DNA of 64,000 bases, taken from NCBI GenBank assembly GCA_016867265.1, contig VGJW01000014.1, forward strand, positions 1-64,000. The letters run 5' to 3'. Shown here piece by piece: positions 37,094 to 42,697 of this stretch; the stretch's first letter is position 1; each line of letters opens with the position of its first letter. The notes under the pieces are model-generated. The model saw only the letters and a list, made by a program, of their open reading frames with translations, did not search any database and was not told the DNA's origin. Both the position numbers and the translations under genes were made by a program. The stretch is from Candidatus Tanganyikabacteria bacterium (GTDB lineage Bacteria > Cyanobacteriota > Sericytochromatia > S15B-MN24 > VGJW01).

Positions 37094-37708
37094 TCAGCGC
37101 GGCTTCTGCAGCTTCTGCAGGATGACCGCCAAGACCTCGGGTGTCGCGTACTCGTTGATGGCGAACTGGCCGTTGGCCGCCCGGTAGGTCTGGTGCAGGT
37201 TGTTGTCCATCTTGAAGCGCTGGACAGCAATCCCGAGGGGCTCGTCGTAACCGCCGGACGCCGACACCTGGTAACCCAACCGGCCCAGTGCCGCCCGCAG
37301 TTGGAGCACCGCATCTGCGTTGCCCGTTCCGGGGCCCAGCGTGCCACTTCCGGCATAGGTGCCGACCTCGGCCCGGAAGGCATCGAGGTTGGCCTTGGAG
37401 GGCTGAAGCTGGTACTGGTTGGCAAGCGCCCGATCCTGCGGCGTCAGGGTTGTCGCAGCATCATCGACGGGCTGCCCGAAGAGGCGCTTCACGAAGTTGA
37501 CGATGCCGCGAAACATGTTGCCGGCCACTTCCATCGCCTTGGCAAAGAAACCCTGCAACACCACAATCGTGCCACCGGCCGCGGCCGGGGCCTGCGGCGC
37601 GGGCAGAGCGGGCGCAGCAACCGGCGCGACGACGGGAGGCGTGGGCGTTCCCCCTGCAGCAACCTGGGCGCGGAAGACCATCGGACGATGCGACAGGGAA
37701 GCAATCAT
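37094..37708 (-). CDS. peptidoglycan-binding-domain protein with amphipathic N-terminal segment
   Basis: The protein (204 residues) starts at an ATG with GAGGTG upstream. After a Pro/Ala linker comes a hydrophobic, helix-prone stretch (GFFAKAMEVAGNMFRGIVNF near 55-75). A C-terminal domain of PG_binding_1 type follows (LQLRAALGRLGYQVSASGG near 140 and IAVQRFKMDNNL). There is no signal peptide. The layout, amphipathic helix plus cell-wall-binding fold, is the same as in the LysM gene at 40190. It is the last gene of a minus-strand cluster beginning at 42697. Confidence 0.7.
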   Translation of the reverse strand: MIASLSHRPMVFRAQVAAGGTPTPPVVAPVAAPALPAPQAPAAAGGTIVVLQGFFAKAMEVAGNMFRGIVNFVKRLFGQPVDDAATTLTPQDRALANQYQLQPSKANLDAFRAEVGTYAGSGTLGPGTGNADAVLQLRAALGRLGYQVSASGGYDEPLGIAVQRFKMDNNLHQTYRAANGQFAINEYATPEVLAVILQKLQKPR

Positions 37709-37802
37709 CTCGGCACCTCGGCTACGGGGGGCGACAGCCCTTCCATCGTCGCTACGGAGCGCCTTTCGGTAAAGGAAACCCCAAGGAAGCCTGAAGCCTG
37801 AA

Positions 37803-38702
37803 CTAAACCTCGGAGCTAAGGCGACGGCCAAACCACAGCCTGTCGACACGACGCGATTGGACCTCGACTGGATCAAACAGGGCCTCGACACCACGCACGC
37901 CTGCAACCGTGAGGAAACGCATTTGTCCGCGCCCCAACTCGCGGGCAGCCAGCTTGAATCGATCGAGCAGGGCGCCCGACAAGCCAGCCGGCCGATGGCG
38001 GAGACGCACGGCGATCTCGTAGAGCAGCACGGTGTCGACGTCCTCGGACATGCCGAGGATGGCCGCAACCGGCTGGCCACCCCGCCAGGCAACCGCACCC
38101 AGGAGTCCGCCATCCCGCGCGTCGTGCAAGGCGTGGAGCAGGCGACGGCAACGATCAGGCGTGGGCCAGTCCGGAAACGTCAGGTAAACGCCGTTCAGGC
38201 TGCCGACATTGACGGACGACAGCATGGCCCCGACGCGGGCAAAGGACTCGGGTTCTAGTGGACGGAGCTCATAGCCATCCGGCAGGGGCCTGGGCGTCGG
38301 GTTGGCCAGCCCGAGATCATAGTCGTGGGCCACACGCTGGTAGGCCCTGTATCCCGCAGGCACGGCAAGCCTTTCGAAGGCAGGGCTGCCTGGAAGGCCG
38401 AGAATGGCCTCCTCCGGAACCAGCACGGCGGCGACTCCGGGTTGCACCAGCAGATCAGGCAACCAGGGCAAGCAGGTCGGTACCTCGAGGGCCCGGACGA
38501 CCAGCAACGGACCGTGGCGATCGATCAGGGCAGCCGCATCCGACTCGAACCAGACGCAGCCCGGAGCATCGCCGAAGCGACGCACGCCGGCTTCCATCCA
38601 GCGGGCGCCAACGGGCTGCCCCATACGGGTGGCCCCGGCCTGCAGGACCCGAAGGACCTCTGGCGCATCGAACAGGCCGGCGGAACGCGGCGCCACGATC
38701 AA
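37803..38702 (-). CDS. GNAT-like acetyltransferase-fold protein
   Basis: The protein (about 299 residues) starts at a TTG (38702) overlapping the upstream stop as TTGA; a GTG at 38696 is the alternative. The C-terminal half looks like a GNAT domain: YELRPLEPESFARVGAML, GGLLGAVAWRGGQPVAAILG near 205, and AGLSGALLDRFKLAARELG. The N-terminal half has a second, weaker likeness, so it may be a tandem GNAT. Substrate unknown. It lies between the 429-residue unknown gene and the peptidoglycan-binding gene. Confidence 0.65.
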   Translation of the reverse strand: MIVAPRSAGLFDAPEVLRVLQAGATRMGQPVGARWMEAGVRRFGDAPGCVWFESDAAALIDRHGPLLVVRALEVPTCLPWLPDLLVQPGVAAVLVPEEAILGLPGSPAFERLAVPAGYRAYQRVAHDYDLGLANPTPRPLPDGYELRPLEPESFARVGAMLSSVNVGSLNGVYLTFPDWPTPDRCRRLLHALHDARDGGLLGAVAWRGGQPVAAILGMSEDVDTVLLYEIAVRLRHRPAGLSGALLDRFKLAARELGRGQMRFLTVAGVRGVEALFDPVEVQSRRVDRLWFGRRLSSEV

Positions 38703-39982
38703 TCCGCCGGAGGCGGCTCGAAGCCGTAACGCAAGGTCTCCTCGCGCTGGTCGGCGTCGGCAGGAAAGAGTCGGGCAAGGGCAGGCACCCCGGCAACCAG
38801 CTTGTGCGCGCCAAGGACGGCGGTGACGCGGCCATCCAGTTGCCTCCACACAGGCATCGACAGGATACGGGCGGCCTGACCGACCGACCCCGAGACCAGT
38901 TCCTTGAGCAGGACCCGGGCCACATGGGCATCTGCACGGGCCTCGAACAACACGTCAGCCAACGCACTGGCCCTGACCTTGGCCTCGACCTGGCTCGCGA
39001 AGAGGGCGACCAGAGCCTCGCGTTCCTGCGCGCGGTAGGAATCGGCGATATTCGGCACCCAGCTCAGGTCATCGAAAATGGGGGGGGTCGGAGCATCACC
39101 CACTCGCTCATCGACATCCTTGGGCGCGGCGCCTTCATCCGGCTCGTGACTTGCTTCATCCTGCACGCCCGGAGCCCCAGCCACGGGTAGGGGCAGCAAT
39201 CCATCAAGTCCGGCGAGTTCCGGCAAACTGCTGCCAAGGCCGGGCAGTGGCTCCATGATGCCGCCGAGCCCACCGAGCCCGCCTCCGTCATCCAAGGACA
39301 GCGAGGATAGGCCCTTGGGCTGGACATCTGGCGACGAAGCTGCGGATGGCAAGCCACTTGCCAAGGGAATAGCCGATCCGGCGCGACCGCCATCCGAGGA
39401 CTTGGGCAACGCCGCCTGAGTCACGCGCCATGTCACGTCGTCCTCATCGGGCTGGAACGAAACCTGCAGAGCCTCGGCGAGCACTCGATGGGCCACCGCC
39501 AGATCCATGAGGTGGAAACGCAGCGCAGCCAGATCGGCGACGGCACCCGCCTTGCGATAAGCCACAGTCTGCTGGGGATCATCGACTTGAATACCTTCGG
39601 CAAAGTTGATCTCAAGCGACCGGAGATCCTCCGCCATGTCCGCAACGCGGAGCAAGGCTTTGGTCCGCAGGTTCAGCTTGAGTTCGATACCCAAGTCCAT
39701 GTGGTGGTGCCAGCGGACTCGTTCTTGCTGCACCGGGTCAAGGGGATAAGCAGCCTTCATCGCCCGGAACGAGGCCACTTCCTGATCGAGCGAGGCGATG
39801 AACGAATTTTGCGTGGCCATGGCGTCCATGACCTTTTTCATGACGACGGCCTTGCGTCCCTCGGCCTTCTTGACCAGTTGGGCCAAGTCCTGACGGCGCG
39901 CCTCAAGGTAGGCCTCCTGCTCGGGTTCGGGAAGCGCCGCGAACTCCTCGACGGAGATCAGGTTGGGAACAAGTTCATTCAC
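38699..39982 (-). CDS. unrecognised 427-residue protein of the small-paralogue cluster
   Basis: The N-terminal part (about 1-180) is helical and probably coiled coil, the middle (180-290) is low-complexity Gly/Ser/Leu/Pro, and the C-terminal 130 residues are helical again. No signal peptide, TM or catalytic motif is seen, and I do not recognise the family. A GTG at 39982 overlaps the stop of a possible small ORF (TAGTG); a TTG at 39988 is the alternative start. Its stop overlaps the GNAT-like gene as TTGA, so the two are coupled. Confidence 0.7.
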   Translation of the reverse strand: MNELVPNLISVEEFAALPEPEQEAYLEARRQDLAQLVKKAEGRKAVVMKKVMDAMATQNSFIASLDQEVASFRAMKAAYPLDPVQQERVRWHHHMDLGIELKLNLRTKALLRVADMAEDLRSLEINFAEGIQVDDPQQTVAYRKAGAVADLAALRFHLMDLAVAHRVLAEALQVSFQPDEDDVTWRVTQAALPKSSDGGRAGSAIPLASGLPSAASSPDVQPKGLSSLSLDDGGGLGGLGGIMEPLPGLGSSLPELAGLDGLLPLPVAGAPGVQDEASHEPDEGAAPKDVDERVGDAPTPPIFDDLSWVPNIADSYRAQEREALVALFASQVEAKVRASALADVLFEARADAHVARVLLKELVSGSVGQAARILSMPVWRQLDGRVTAVLGAHKLVAGVPALARLFPADADQREETLRYGFEPPPAD

Positions 39983-40137
39983 TACCAAAATGCCTGCTGC
40001 AACCGCTTGAAGGGACCGAGAGAGTCATACCCACCGAGGAGGCTGCTCAAGACACGCCAAGTGATGACCGCCTCCATCCAGAAAAAGAGGCCGACTGCAC
40101 GTCCCGGGACATGAACAAGCAGTCGGCCCAAAGCCAA
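39982..40137 (-). CDS. possible small membrane peptide
   Basis: A frame ending at a TAG (39984-39982) encodes a hydrophobic stretch (VGLFFWMEAVITWRVLSSLL) flanked by basic residues. Its stop overlaps the next gene's GTG as TAGTG, like the coupled junctions elsewhere. A TTG start at 40137 would give 51 residues, but no good ribosome binding site is seen. Confidence 0.3.
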   Translation of the reverse strand: MALGRLLVHVPGRAVGLFFWMEAVITWRVLSSLLGGYDSLGPFKRLQQAFW

Positions 40138-40189
40138 AGCCTGGTGGCCGAAGCTGTACTCCGGACCGACGTATCCCTTGCTAACCGCC

Positions 40190-40609
40190 TCAGGAGGCAC
40201 GGACGTCGGCGGGAGACGGCACATTGACGGCATCCCCGGGATAGATGAGGTCTCCCGACGCTTTGCGGGCCTTGCCAGAGGAATCTTTGCCATCCTTGAA
40301 GATGTCGGGATTGGCCGATTTCAGGTCGCCGACCGACACTTTGGCGTCTCTCGATACCTTGCCAATCATATCCCCGCTCTTCACCGCGATGGTACGCGAG
40401 GGTGGTTTGACCGCTTCATTCTTTTTCTCGTCCGCCGCCTTGGCCTCCGCATTGGCGGCGGGCTTCGCAGCCACCGTGCCCAAGCCCTCGAAGAACGTCG
40501 CCAATTTTTTGAAGGCACTTGCGATGCCCTCGAAACTGAACATCTTGCCGATGCCGCTTCCGATGCTGCTGACAGCACTCTTGATACCGTTGACTACACC
40601 ACCCATCAA
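40190..40609 (-). CDS. MGGxxN-family small protein fused to a LysM-like domain
   Basis: The 139-residue protein begins MMGGVVNGIKSAVSSIGSGI, the divergent member of the local paralogue family, and continues with an amphipathic helix (FEGIASAFKKLATFFEGLG). A charged linker follows, then a C-terminal LysM-like fold (TIAVKSGDMIGKVSRDAKV and DLIYPGDAVNVP). LysM binds N-acetylglucosamine polymers such as peptidoglycan. AGAGGGGAGAA upstream is a good ribosome binding site. There is no signal peptide, so export, if it occurs, must use another route. Confidence 0.75.
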   Translation of the reverse strand: MMGGVVNGIKSAVSSIGSGIGKMFSFEGIASAFKKLATFFEGLGTVAAKPAANAEAKAADEKKNEAVKPPSRTIAVKSGDMIGKVSRDAKVSVGDLKSANPDIFKDGKDSSGKARKASGDLIYPGDAVNVPSPADVRAS

Positions 40610-40859
40610 CGTTCTCCCCTCTCTGGCTCAACTTCTGGGCGCACATCTGGCAAGCACCGGGTCACCGACGAGATGCATAGCCCCACACCCCCTCACGTGC
40701 TGAAGAATCGCCGAACTCACTAACGTTCACGCCGCCTTGAGAAAATACGAGAACATTTAAAGGACGGAAGTCCAGTCACGATCTAGGCGACAAAATGTTA
40801 ACGACCAAGCACCTCGTCTCTCTCCAGATCGCCCGAGGGTGGATACCCCCTGGACTGCA

Positions 40860-41096
40860 TCAGGCGAACTGGGACTGAAAGGCACCGGGCGCCTGCGGCA
40901 TCTGGGCCCCGGCAATGCGTCCTTGATCCTGCTGGGCCGACATCTGCGAGAAGGCATCGAAGGCCCCCCCGAGCTGCTGGAAGAGGCCGCCCATCTGCTG
41001 CATCTCCGGCACGAACTTGCCGATGGCGTCAAAGATGCCGCCCCGGCCCTGCATCCCCTGAGAAATACCGCTGATGACGTTCGCCACGCCACCCAT
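40860..41096 (-). CDS. MGGxxN-family small protein
   Basis: The 78-residue protein starts MGGVANVISGISQGMQGRGG and continues IFDAIGKFVPEMQQMG, GAFDAFSQM, then a short Gln/Ala/Pro tail. It is shorter and less similar than the members at 41302 and 42419. It has its own AAGGGGGA site. Spaced glycines and hydrophobic residues suggest an amphipathic helix able to pack against a membrane or itself. The function is unknown. Confidence 0.7.
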   Translation of the reverse strand: MGGVANVISGISQGMQGRGGIFDAIGKFVPEMQQMGGLFQQLGGAFDAFSQMSAQQDQGRIAGAQMPQAPGAFQSQFA

Positions 41097-41239
41097 GTCC
41101 GCATCCCCCTTGCTTGACGATCCCCCAGCCCCCCGGCAAGTTCCCGCAAGCGTTCAATCGGCCACGGAATACCATCGAATGCAAGACTTCATCTGCGGTT
41201 CACCTTGGCACCCTACCCGGGACCTGCCCCCAAGAGGCA

Positions 41240-41267
41240 GCGGGGACGGCCTGTCGGCTGTCCCCGC
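41240..41267 (-). terminator. hairpin after the 41302 paralogue
   Basis: A 12-bp stem (41240-41251 with 41256-41267, loop of four) has one A-C mismatch in the minus-strand transcript and a G-U wobble in the plus. The T-run on the minus side is weak, so termination is probable but not certain. Confidence 0.5.
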
Positions 41268-41301
41268 AAAGTCCGGCAAGCCTTCAGGCTGCCGCAGGTG
41301 C

Positions 41302-41544
41302 CTACGCTGCCACCTGCGGCGGCCGCGCCACAACCTGAGCGTTCCTCTGCTGATCCCGTTCCCGATTGGATTCTTCCAGCTTGGCCGCCATCTGGGCGAA
41401 GGCATCGACGGCGCCGCTGACCTGCTTGAAGATGTCCCCGATCTGCTTCAACTGGGGCACGAACTGTCCGATGGCGCCGAAGATGCCACCGATGGCCTGA
41501 AGGCCTTGCTGGATACCGCTGACGACGTTGGCAATACCGCCCAT
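41302..41544 (-). CDS. MGGxxN-family small protein
   Basis: The 80-residue protein starts MGGIANVVSGIQQGLQAIGG, then IFGAIGQFVPQLKQIG, GAVDAFAQMAAKLEESNRER and a short tail. It is nearly identical to the 42419 protein except that its tail ends earlier at a TAG. The longer frame upstream (to 41790) is not conserved and would overrun the hairpin at 41715, so the ATG at 41544 is used. The last third is a charged helix, unlike the glycine-rich first half. Confidence 0.72.
   Translation of the reverse strand: MGGIANVVSGIQQGLQAIGGIFGAIGQFVPQLKQIGDIFKQVSGAVDAFAQMAAKLEESNRERDQQRNAQVVARPPQVAA
41308..41544. repeat. copy A of a recent gene duplication
   Basis: These 237 bp align without gaps to 42461-42697 with about 21 differences by eye (about 91% identity). 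Identity extends weakly beyond the coding part at 41284-41297 and 42419-42432, with an 18-bp length difference between. Confidence 0.85.
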
Positions 41545-41714
41545 GTTCACGACCCCCCCTGCATGTGGTCCGATGCGCCCCCCGGCGGTACCTGCCACAA
41601 AGGGTTCATCGCGCTTCAAGCACGCGGACTGGAAGATTTCACGAAGCGTTGAATGCCGGGAGACAAGTCTGAAACCTTCAACCCGAAAGGCCGCAGGACG
41701 GCCCAAAGGCGAAA

Positions 41715-41742
41715 GCGGGCCGCATCGGTGGATGCAGCCCGC
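41715..41742 (-). terminator. hairpin after the 41774 paralogue
   Basis: A 12-bp stem (41715-41726 with 41731-41742) has one U-G wobble in the minus-strand transcript, loop of four, and TTTCGCCTTT follows on that strand. It lies 31 bp after the stop at 41774. Confidence 0.65.
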
Positions 41743-41773
41743 CAATCTTGAAATGAGGCGGAAGCGCGCGTCC

Positions 41774-42151
41774 TTACTTGGCCAAGGCACTCAGGATGGA
41801 CGCTGGGTCAAAATTCCCGGACTTGATGGCATCGAGCACACCGTTGACCGTGCCGCTCGCCGCCTGAACCTCCTGCAGGTTGTTGTAACCCGTTCCGGCC
41901 AGTGGATCTGCGGCGGAACCGGTAGGGACCGGAGGCGCAGAGACGCCTGCCTTTGCGGCATCCTTGCCTGCCTCCTCGGCGTCGGCCTTCTCGTTGATTT
42001 TGGACATGACCGAGAAGGCATCGGAAGCTTGGTTGAGCATGCTGCCGATCTGCTTGAACTGCGGAACGAACTGGCCAATGGCCCCCATCAAGCCACCAAC
42101 GGCCTTCAGGCCCTGCTGGATGCCACTGACGATATTCGCGACTCCACCCAT
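41774..42151 (-). CDS. MGGxxN-family small protein with extended C-terminus
   Basis: The 125-residue protein starts MGGVANIVSGIQQGLKAVGG and has LMGAIGQFVPQFKQIG and SDAFSVM. It then has a family-atypical tail of about 60 residues: an Ala/Glu/Lys-rich stretch, a Pro-rich turn and a closing helix (VNGVLDAIKSGNFDPASILS). A GGGAGG site precedes the ATG. It is the second gene of the array after 42419. Confidence 0.72.
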   Translation of the reverse strand: MGGVANIVSGIQQGLKAVGGLMGAIGQFVPQFKQIGSMLNQASDAFSVMSKINEKADAEEAGKDAAKAGVSAPPVPTGSAADPLAGTGYNNLQEVQAASGTVNGVLDAIKSGNFDPASILSALAK

Positions 42152-42371
42152 GCTGACGCCTCCCTCTGACTTCCGGGGTCCACCAACGGAACCACCTAGC
42201 TGATCTGTTCTTTGCCCGATTTCAGCGCGCCATCGCTAAATTTCACGCTCACGTAATGGTCCCCTCGACCACCAGCGTGCGAAAGTTGCCGCATCCCAGT
42301 GAACCCGGACGCTGGCGCGTGGCACACCACGCGGTTTCTAGCGGACACCCCGGTACCGCCCAAAGGCCGAT

Positions 42372-42395
42372 GGGGGTGGCCCCCCGACCACCCCC
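42372..42395 (-). terminator. hairpin after the 42419 paralogue
   Basis: GGGGGTGG and CCACCCCC form a perfect 8-bp stem (42372-42379, 42388-42395) with an 8-base loop, 23 bp after the stop of the 42419 gene. ATCGGCCTTTGGG follows on the minus strand, a poor T-run. Confidence 0.45.
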
Positions 42396-42418
42396 GCCAA
42401 GCCTCGCGATCCAGGCCG

Positions 42419-42697
42419 TCAGGCTGCCGCAGACGCCCGGGCTGCCGCAAATGGGTGGCCTGCCACCTGCGGCGGCCGCGCCGCAACCTGAGCGTTCCTC
42501 TGCTGATCCCGTTCCCGATTGGATTCTTCGAGCTTGGCCGCCATCTGGGCGAAGGCATCGACGGCCCCGCTGACCTGCTTGAACATGTCACCCACCTGCT
42601 TGAGTTGGGGTACGAACTGGCCTATGGCGTCGAAGATGCCACCGATGGCCTGCAGGCCCTGCTGAAACCCGCTGACGACGTTGGCGATACCACCCAT
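42419..42697 (-). CDS. MGGxxN-family small protein, first gene of the array
   Basis: The 92-residue protein starts MGGIANVVSGFQQGLQAIGG and continues IFDAIGQFVPQLKQVG, GAVDAFAQMAAKLEESNRER, ending in an Ala-rich tail 12 residues longer than its near-twin at 41302. AGGAGG lies nine bases before the ATG. The first half has small residues every three to four positions (glycine-zipper-like) and one conserved FVPQ turn. It has no signal peptide or clear TM helix. Possible roles include a membrane-active or self-assembling protein; none is shown. Confidence 0.72.
   Translation of the reverse strand: MGGIANVVSGFQQGLQAIGGIFDAIGQFVPQLKQVGDMFKQVSGAVDAFAQMAAKLEESNRERDQQRNAQVAARPPQVAGHPFAAARASAAA
42461..42697. 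repeat. copy B of a recent gene duplication
   Basis: This is the partner of 41308-41544, covering most of the 42419 coding sequence including its start codon. The two copies are in the same orientation 1153 bp apart. Confidence 0.85.

Follow-up and report, generated by a model that had tools for sequence, protein, structure and literature searches.

GNAT enzymes can acylate ribosomal peptides. In the nostolysamide system of the cyanobacterium Nostoc (NpuA/NpuN), the GNAT NpuN is predicted to be a tandem enzyme and prefers palmitoyl-CoA (PMC13060382). GNATs also act on proteins; Emp1 is responsible for the N-terminal acetylation of EsxA, a small secreted protein, and 23 proteins are modified (PMC10653941). 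Here we analyze a gene cassette in a stretch of 64,000 nucleotides (the window), which is part of contig VGJW01000014.1 (C14) in the 2.85 Mb genome of a Candidatus Tanganyikabacteria bacterium. The cassette encodes small proteins that start with Met-Gly-Gly (MGG proteins), a helical partner (the coil protein) and a tandem GNAT. This MGG-coil-GNAT cassette is real, occurs across the order and is undescribed; the closest known kind of system is that of the GNAT-lipidated ribosomal peptides (selidamides, nostolysamide). We propose tentatively, and with slightly less than even confidence, that the GNAT may acylate the exposed N-terminal glycine of the leaderless, amphipathic MGG proteins, and that the cassette serves to make as well as to modify them.

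Like the GNAT-lipidated peptides, the cassette combines a small ribosomal product with a neighboring GNAT, which is a predicted tandem GNAT in the case of NpuN. Unlike in those systems, no leader, lanthionine synthetase, peptidase or exporter was recognised in any of the cassette gene maps. The MGG products comprise 78-156 aa and have a fixed MGG start, and a gene for a helical partner is added. The P-loop of NpuN is located in the N-terminal domain, that of the cassette GNAT in the C-terminal domain. Because leader and processing genes are missing, the cassette is outside the class of ribosomally synthesized and post-translationally modified peptides (RiPPs) as defined. A second comparison is with RimI/Naa enzymes and Emp1, which share with the cassette a GNAT that acts on a protein alpha-amine (presumed here); the C-terminal domain of the cassette GNAT is closest to RimI. 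However, RimI is a single-domain enzyme, whereas the cassette enzyme has two GNAT folds per chain, and Emp1 with its 23 modified proteins is not dedicated, while the cassette GNAT is encoded beside its presumed substrate.

The genes of the cassette in the window are as follows.

42419..42697, minus strand: MGG protein 1, 92 aa, MGGIANVVSGFQQGL...IGQFVPQLKQVG...DAFAQM, with the Shine-Dalgarno (SD) sequence AGGAGG upstream and a ratio of nonsynonymous to synonymous substitution rates (dN/dS) of 0.08 versus copy 3
41774..42151, minus strand: MGG protein 2, 125 aa, with a longer and polar C-terminal part
41302..41544, minus strand: MGG protein 3, 80 aa, 93% identical to protein 1
40860..41096, minus strand: MGG protein 4, 78 aa
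40190..40606, minus strand: MGG protein 5, 138 aa, with MGG start, amphipathic segment and a weak LysM at residues 75-99
38699..39982, minus strand: helical coil partner, 427 aa; in other order genomes its orthologues directly follow MGG genes
37803..38702, minus strand: tandem GNAT-fold protein, 297-299 aa, starting with GTG at 38696 or TTG at 38702 and overlapping or abutting the stop of the coil gene

The distribution of the cassette was analyzed in a sample of 10 genomes of the order; its gene order, or a direct variant of it, occurs in four families (f1-f4). The GNAT family (E<=1e-20) is present in 8 of the 10, and 8 further genomes from elsewhere in the class all lack it. MGG proteins occur in the same 8 genomes, so that the co-occurrence by genome is without exception; the remaining two, G001 (64% complete) and G007, contain neither. 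In three genomes (G002, G003 and G004) the genes form a block in the order MGG, coil, GNAT, folC, PG-binding gene, an unidentified gene and mutS (names assigned by eye), with two extra small genes ahead of mutS in G004. The window's own block lacks folC, and the multiplication of the MGG gene to five copies is specific to the window. The f1 genomes keep the cassette at the same position of the chromosome, close to mutS. In the other families it is found at a different location, with its core kept and without the PG-binding gene and folC. The core reads MGG-coil-GNAT in G009 and MGG-coil-MGG-coil-GNAT in G008; in G006 coil and GNAT genes follow each other and an MGG-like gene is cut by the end of the contig. 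A first-pass annotation, made from the letters of the window, had grouped the 427-aa and GNAT-like genes with the MGG genes; the same unit is indeed conserved across the order.

The relatives of the MGG proteins were only reached with profiles. A scan of GTDB contigs with the single MGG protein 3 found none. With a profile of the four paralogues a weak hit was obtained in G004, 3.6 kb away from where the PG-binding gene has its best relative, and a contig scan with another profile found only two metagenome-assembled genomes, which were already seen as G002 and G003. This check for spread beyond the genome, which had been suggested with the annotation, shows a family conserved across the order. 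Matches of the MGG profile in photosynthetic cyanobacteria were rejected; they are weak and those opened were mostly low-complexity repeats. An MGG-start protein in genome G022 of the sister order was also rejected, as it lies within an array of glycine-zipper paralogues in which no MGG-coil-GNAT cassette was recognised. The class of the window is probably Sericytochromatia. Photosystem reaction-centre proteins were found in 30 of 79 sampled genomes of the phylum and in 0 of 18 genomes of this class, which is therefore a non-photosynthetic branch of the Cyanobacteriota.

The first-pass annotation had noticed five genes on one strand that begin with MGG, and the open reading frames (ORFs) within 40190-42697 bear this out. 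It had also read an MMGG start; the MGG is real, but the extra Met of the fifth gene is a TTG codon ahead of the true ATG. SD-like motifs (AGGAGG, GGGAGG, GGGGGG, GGGGG and GGGGAG) are located a few nucleotides 5' of the MGG start codons. Pairwise dN/dS values of 0.08-0.43 over the first 57 codons indicate purifying selection on the paralogues. Because of the SD-like sites and the low dN/dS values the five ORFs are regarded as real genes. An alignment of proteins 1-4 has 26 invariant columns and identifies them as clear paralogues; these four shorter proteins share IGxFVPxxxQxG and DAFxxM exactly as claimed. Protein 5 is tied to the other four mainly by the MGG itself. With the MGG residues removed its homology to the hidden Markov model (HMM) of the MGG family is only marginal (E=0.03).

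The first halves of the MGG proteins are amphipathic, with a maximum Eisenberg moment of 0.44-0.69 in an 18-residue window; this agrees with the glycine-spaced amphipathic pattern described before and suggests membrane or assembly surfaces. The same hydrophobicity scan found no transmembrane-grade segment, and inspection by eye revealed no Sec signal in the proteins of the cluster, as had been stated. Searches of the MGG proteins in Pfam, NCBIfam and PHROGs returned no fitting family, and no match to a RiPP leader family was found in Pfam/NCBIfam. On these comparisons the MGG family is confirmed as undescribed, which is what the annotation had supposed. In G004 a 192-aa protein without MGG start (L151:8337-8915) contains the core of the MGG family (VGKFVPVVAQVMDAF); it is encoded near a LysM protein without apparent signal peptide.

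The MGG proteins are amphipathic and glycine-rich, and their copy number and C-terminal parts vary. This would also suit leaderless bacteriocin-like or membrane-perturbing peptides against competitors, which the GNAT would tailor or neutralise while the coil protein protects the producer. There is a very weak class IIb bacteriocin match (E=0.21), and PamZ, a tandem GNAT that serves in self-resistance, is among the fold matches of the cassette enzyme. Tandem GNATs are also known to tailor ribosomal peptides (PMC13060382). However, the cassette maps show no exporter, peptidase or leader that could be recognised. The f1 cassette sits at its fixed site near mutS, unlike mobile bacteriocin loci, and no viral or plasmid relatives of the GNAT were found. 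Together, these results make a bacteriocin-like role unlikely. Two further candidates were rejected. Anti-phage defence was dismissed for lack of any match in PADLOC. An origin from a phage tail or tape-measure protein was dismissed as well, since PHROGs matches only reached E>=0.0003 to tape-measure segments, no phage genes were recognised in the surroundings and the GNAT was not found in viral contigs.

Next we consider the enzyme. The Pfam GNAT match of the window copy remains below the cut-off (E=0.014), while PF00583 is above the cut-off in the members from L045, L049 and G006. An AlphaFold2 model of the G009 orthologue (L045) contains two GNAT-like domains, with a predicted local distance difference test (pLDDT) of 78.4 and a predicted template modelling (pTM) score of 0.78; the model is weak before residue 60. 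Full-length Foldseek matches are the tandem GNATs VipF, MAB_4324 and MshD (best E 1e-13 to 1e-8). The predicted double GNAT fold places the protein in the GNAT superfamily. VipF, MAB_4324, MshD and PamZ resemble it in the overall double GNAT fold; they differ from it by an identity of only 10-17%, a template modelling (TM) score of ~0.45-0.5 over the whole chain and other substrates. The best sequence match of the C-terminal domain is RimI (E=1e-6). Naa30/10/40 rank lower among its matches, mixed with small-molecule acetyltransferases. The likeness to RimI alone leaves the substrate unfixed because generic acetyltransferases rank close behind. Members of the family share a signature GLFL[TC][FYW]P ahead of the acyl-CoA loop, with slight variation in a few of them, and most orthologues have the loop Q/R-x-x-G-x-G (QGKG, RGTG, RGSG) in the C-terminal domain.

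The N-terminus of the MGG proteins bears on what the enzyme may act on. In an alignment of 12 divergent MGG proteins from 6 genomes with a mean identity of 27%, only M1, G2 and G3 are invariant. Gly3 is encoded by GGT, GGA and GGC, and this variation means that the constraint is on the protein. Gly2 is encoded by GGT in 12 of 14 cases, a bias that might come from initiation efficiency. A second copy of the GNAT gene in G002 (L146) adjoins a gene for a 219-aa protein that starts with MGGSQLIGKF and has no coil gene next to it. This MGGS protein has no amphipathic first half, and an HMM of the MGG family built without the first three residues did not detect it. The presumed substrates, the MGGS protein among them, have only one acceptor in common, the amine of Gly2. 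Among ~680 distinct called genes, MGG starts were only found in the cassette proteins, the MGGS neighbor and one likely mis-called start; these genes are from fetched loci chosen by searches and not from whole genomes, and they serve as a rough control because the sample is biased to cassette neighborhoods. A conserved N-terminus beside a double-GNAT enzyme points to N-terminal modification, a significance which the first-pass annotation had missed.

The same data bear on an alternative in which the GNAT has the coil protein, a metabolite or nothing as its substrate, while the constancy of M-G-G has a different cause, for example helix packing or turnover of the MGG protein. The coil gene and the GNAT gene, which overlap or abut, are tighter to each other than either is to the MGG gene. 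In addition, the acyl-CoA loop of the window GNAT is degenerate, and the PDB matches of the C-terminal domain include generic as well as N-terminal GNATs. On the other hand, the gene of the unrelated MGGS protein adjoins a GNAT gene where no coil gene is present, which links the enzyme to the MGG start and not to the coil, and the MGG proteins have no invariant residues besides M-G-G. We regard this alternative as improbable.

Acylation of the MGG start would proceed in the following way. Methionine aminopeptidase removes the initial Met when residue 2 is Gly. Since this is the case in the MGG proteins, which would be translated without a leader, the removal should expose an N-terminal Gly-Gly. 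The tandem GNAT encoded downstream would then use acyl-CoA to modify the alpha-amine of this glycine with an acetyl or fatty acyl group. The modified N-terminus together with the amphipathic first half may mediate membrane binding or helical assembly. Gene order and coupling hint that the coil protein might present or scaffold the MGG proteins, as their partner or chaperone. The chain of N-myristoyltransferase (NMT) comprises two GNAT folds, and the enzyme uses an N-terminal glycine as acceptor. The cassette enzyme resembles eukaryotic NMT in its double GNAT fold and, judged from conservation, in an N-terminal Gly as presumed acceptor. A homology to NMT is not supported, as no NMT is found among the 60 PDB profile matches listed or the best 50 Foldseek matches. 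It is conceivable, if rather doubtful, that the cassette is a bacterial counterpart of N-myristoylation that evolved apart from NMT, in which a dedicated double GNAT would lipidate the glycine of leaderless MGG proteins and anchor them to membranes independently of Sec.

Several observations weigh against acylation of the MGG proteins by this enzyme. Besides an MGG-coil-GNAT unit, G005 contains another MGG-coil pair that no GNAT gene adjoins, and coil paralogues with neither MGG nor GNAT genes are widespread in the order. The MGG proteins have no fixed residue beyond M-G-G that would show recognition by the enzyme. Tyr is the catalytic residue of RimI-type enzymes, and most GNAT members have a Phe at this position. 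The acyl-CoA loop of the window copy reads RHRPAG versus RxRGxG or QGxG in its relatives. Because of this loop and the exchange of Tyr for Phe, the window copy may, from its sequence, be weak or inactive.

The coil protein itself has no consistent family in Pfam. An AlphaFold2 model of the G005 orthologue (pLDDT 90.5, pTM 0.83) predicts a long helical hairpin with a helical C-terminal domain, and a search with this model found no match to PDB folds at E<=0.001. BAR-like matches were not significant (E>=0.16), and this identity was rejected. Near their ends, coil paralogues (for example L064, L066, L068, L079, L149:3200-4165) carry a T[RQK]PL motif, which resembles FHA-type phosphothreonine motifs. 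In all called proteins it was seen 28 times versus ~12 expected by shuffling; the loci overlap and some are counted twice. An 81-aa protein in G007 (L152:7879-8124) is encoded directly 5' of a coil paralogue and matches the type III needle family PF09392 below the cut-off (E=0.005).

One further gene of the window is located downstream of the GNAT.

37094..37708, minus strand: PG_binding_1-like protein, 204 aa, with its real start at 37708; the match is below the cut-off (E=0.0016)

The first-pass annotation had described the three downstream genes correctly as one for a protein of 427-429 aa (38699-39982), a GNAT-like gene and a PG_binding_1 gene. The PG-binding gene is a neighbor of the cassette only in f1, and folC lies between the two in G002-G004; the PG-binding gene is probably outside the functional unit. 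Repeats like those of the window protein (37094-37708) have matches in all 10 order genomes (G000:C11:77686, G000:C2:161182 and others), often as chains of several repeats that reach ~1000 aa and have no apparent signal peptide. Near one such match (L157:5883-7370, G000:C9) a 495-aa protein has a hydrophobic, glycine-rich N-terminal part that recalls polymorphic toxins.

The annotation had taken the MGG proteins for membrane-active or self-assembling subunits, which perhaps leave the cell by a non-Sec route and attach to peptidoglycan. A LysM-like region is present in protein 5, but the claimed fusion remains below the Pfam cut-off (PF01476, E=0.0012, 19.2 vs 20.9 bits). The PG_binding_1 neighbor and its order-wide repeat relatives, which also lack an apparent signal peptide, would fit such anchoring, as would the FlhA-family export gates that all order genomes contain, most of them in two full-length copies. 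However, a LysM occurs in only 1 of the 14 MGG proteins seen (none was visible by eye in those read from the cassettes of further order genomes), the PG-binding gene is absent from the f2, f3 and f4 cassettes and no secretion genes were recognised beside any cassette. Cell-wall binding as the common theme does not hold. With LysM in one copy and the PG-binding gene linked in one family only, the anchoring idea is weak and we consider it the least probable of those discussed; the earlier interpretation as a whole is partly supported. Besides the two full-length FlhA copies, the order genomes have many partial or FlhA_C-only frames, some of which are perhaps fragments. In G000 both FlhA genes (L112, C15; L118, C5) are among flagellar genes, with FlgB, FlgC, FliE and FliF duplicated. 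A likeness to type III needles and the two FlhA proteins as export route were rejected, since flagellar genes but no cassette were seen in the neighborhoods inspected.

Modification of bacterial N-termini is poorly understood, and few pairs of a dedicated enzyme and its substrate are known. If the MGG proteins are acylated as proposed, these early-diverging relatives of cyanobacteria would have an enzyme dedicated to acylating the N-terminal Gly of a whole protein class that is recognisable from three residues. The prediction is sharp and easily testable. If true, an acylated N-terminal Gly would be an unusual way for bacteria to tag proteins and perhaps to anchor them to membranes.

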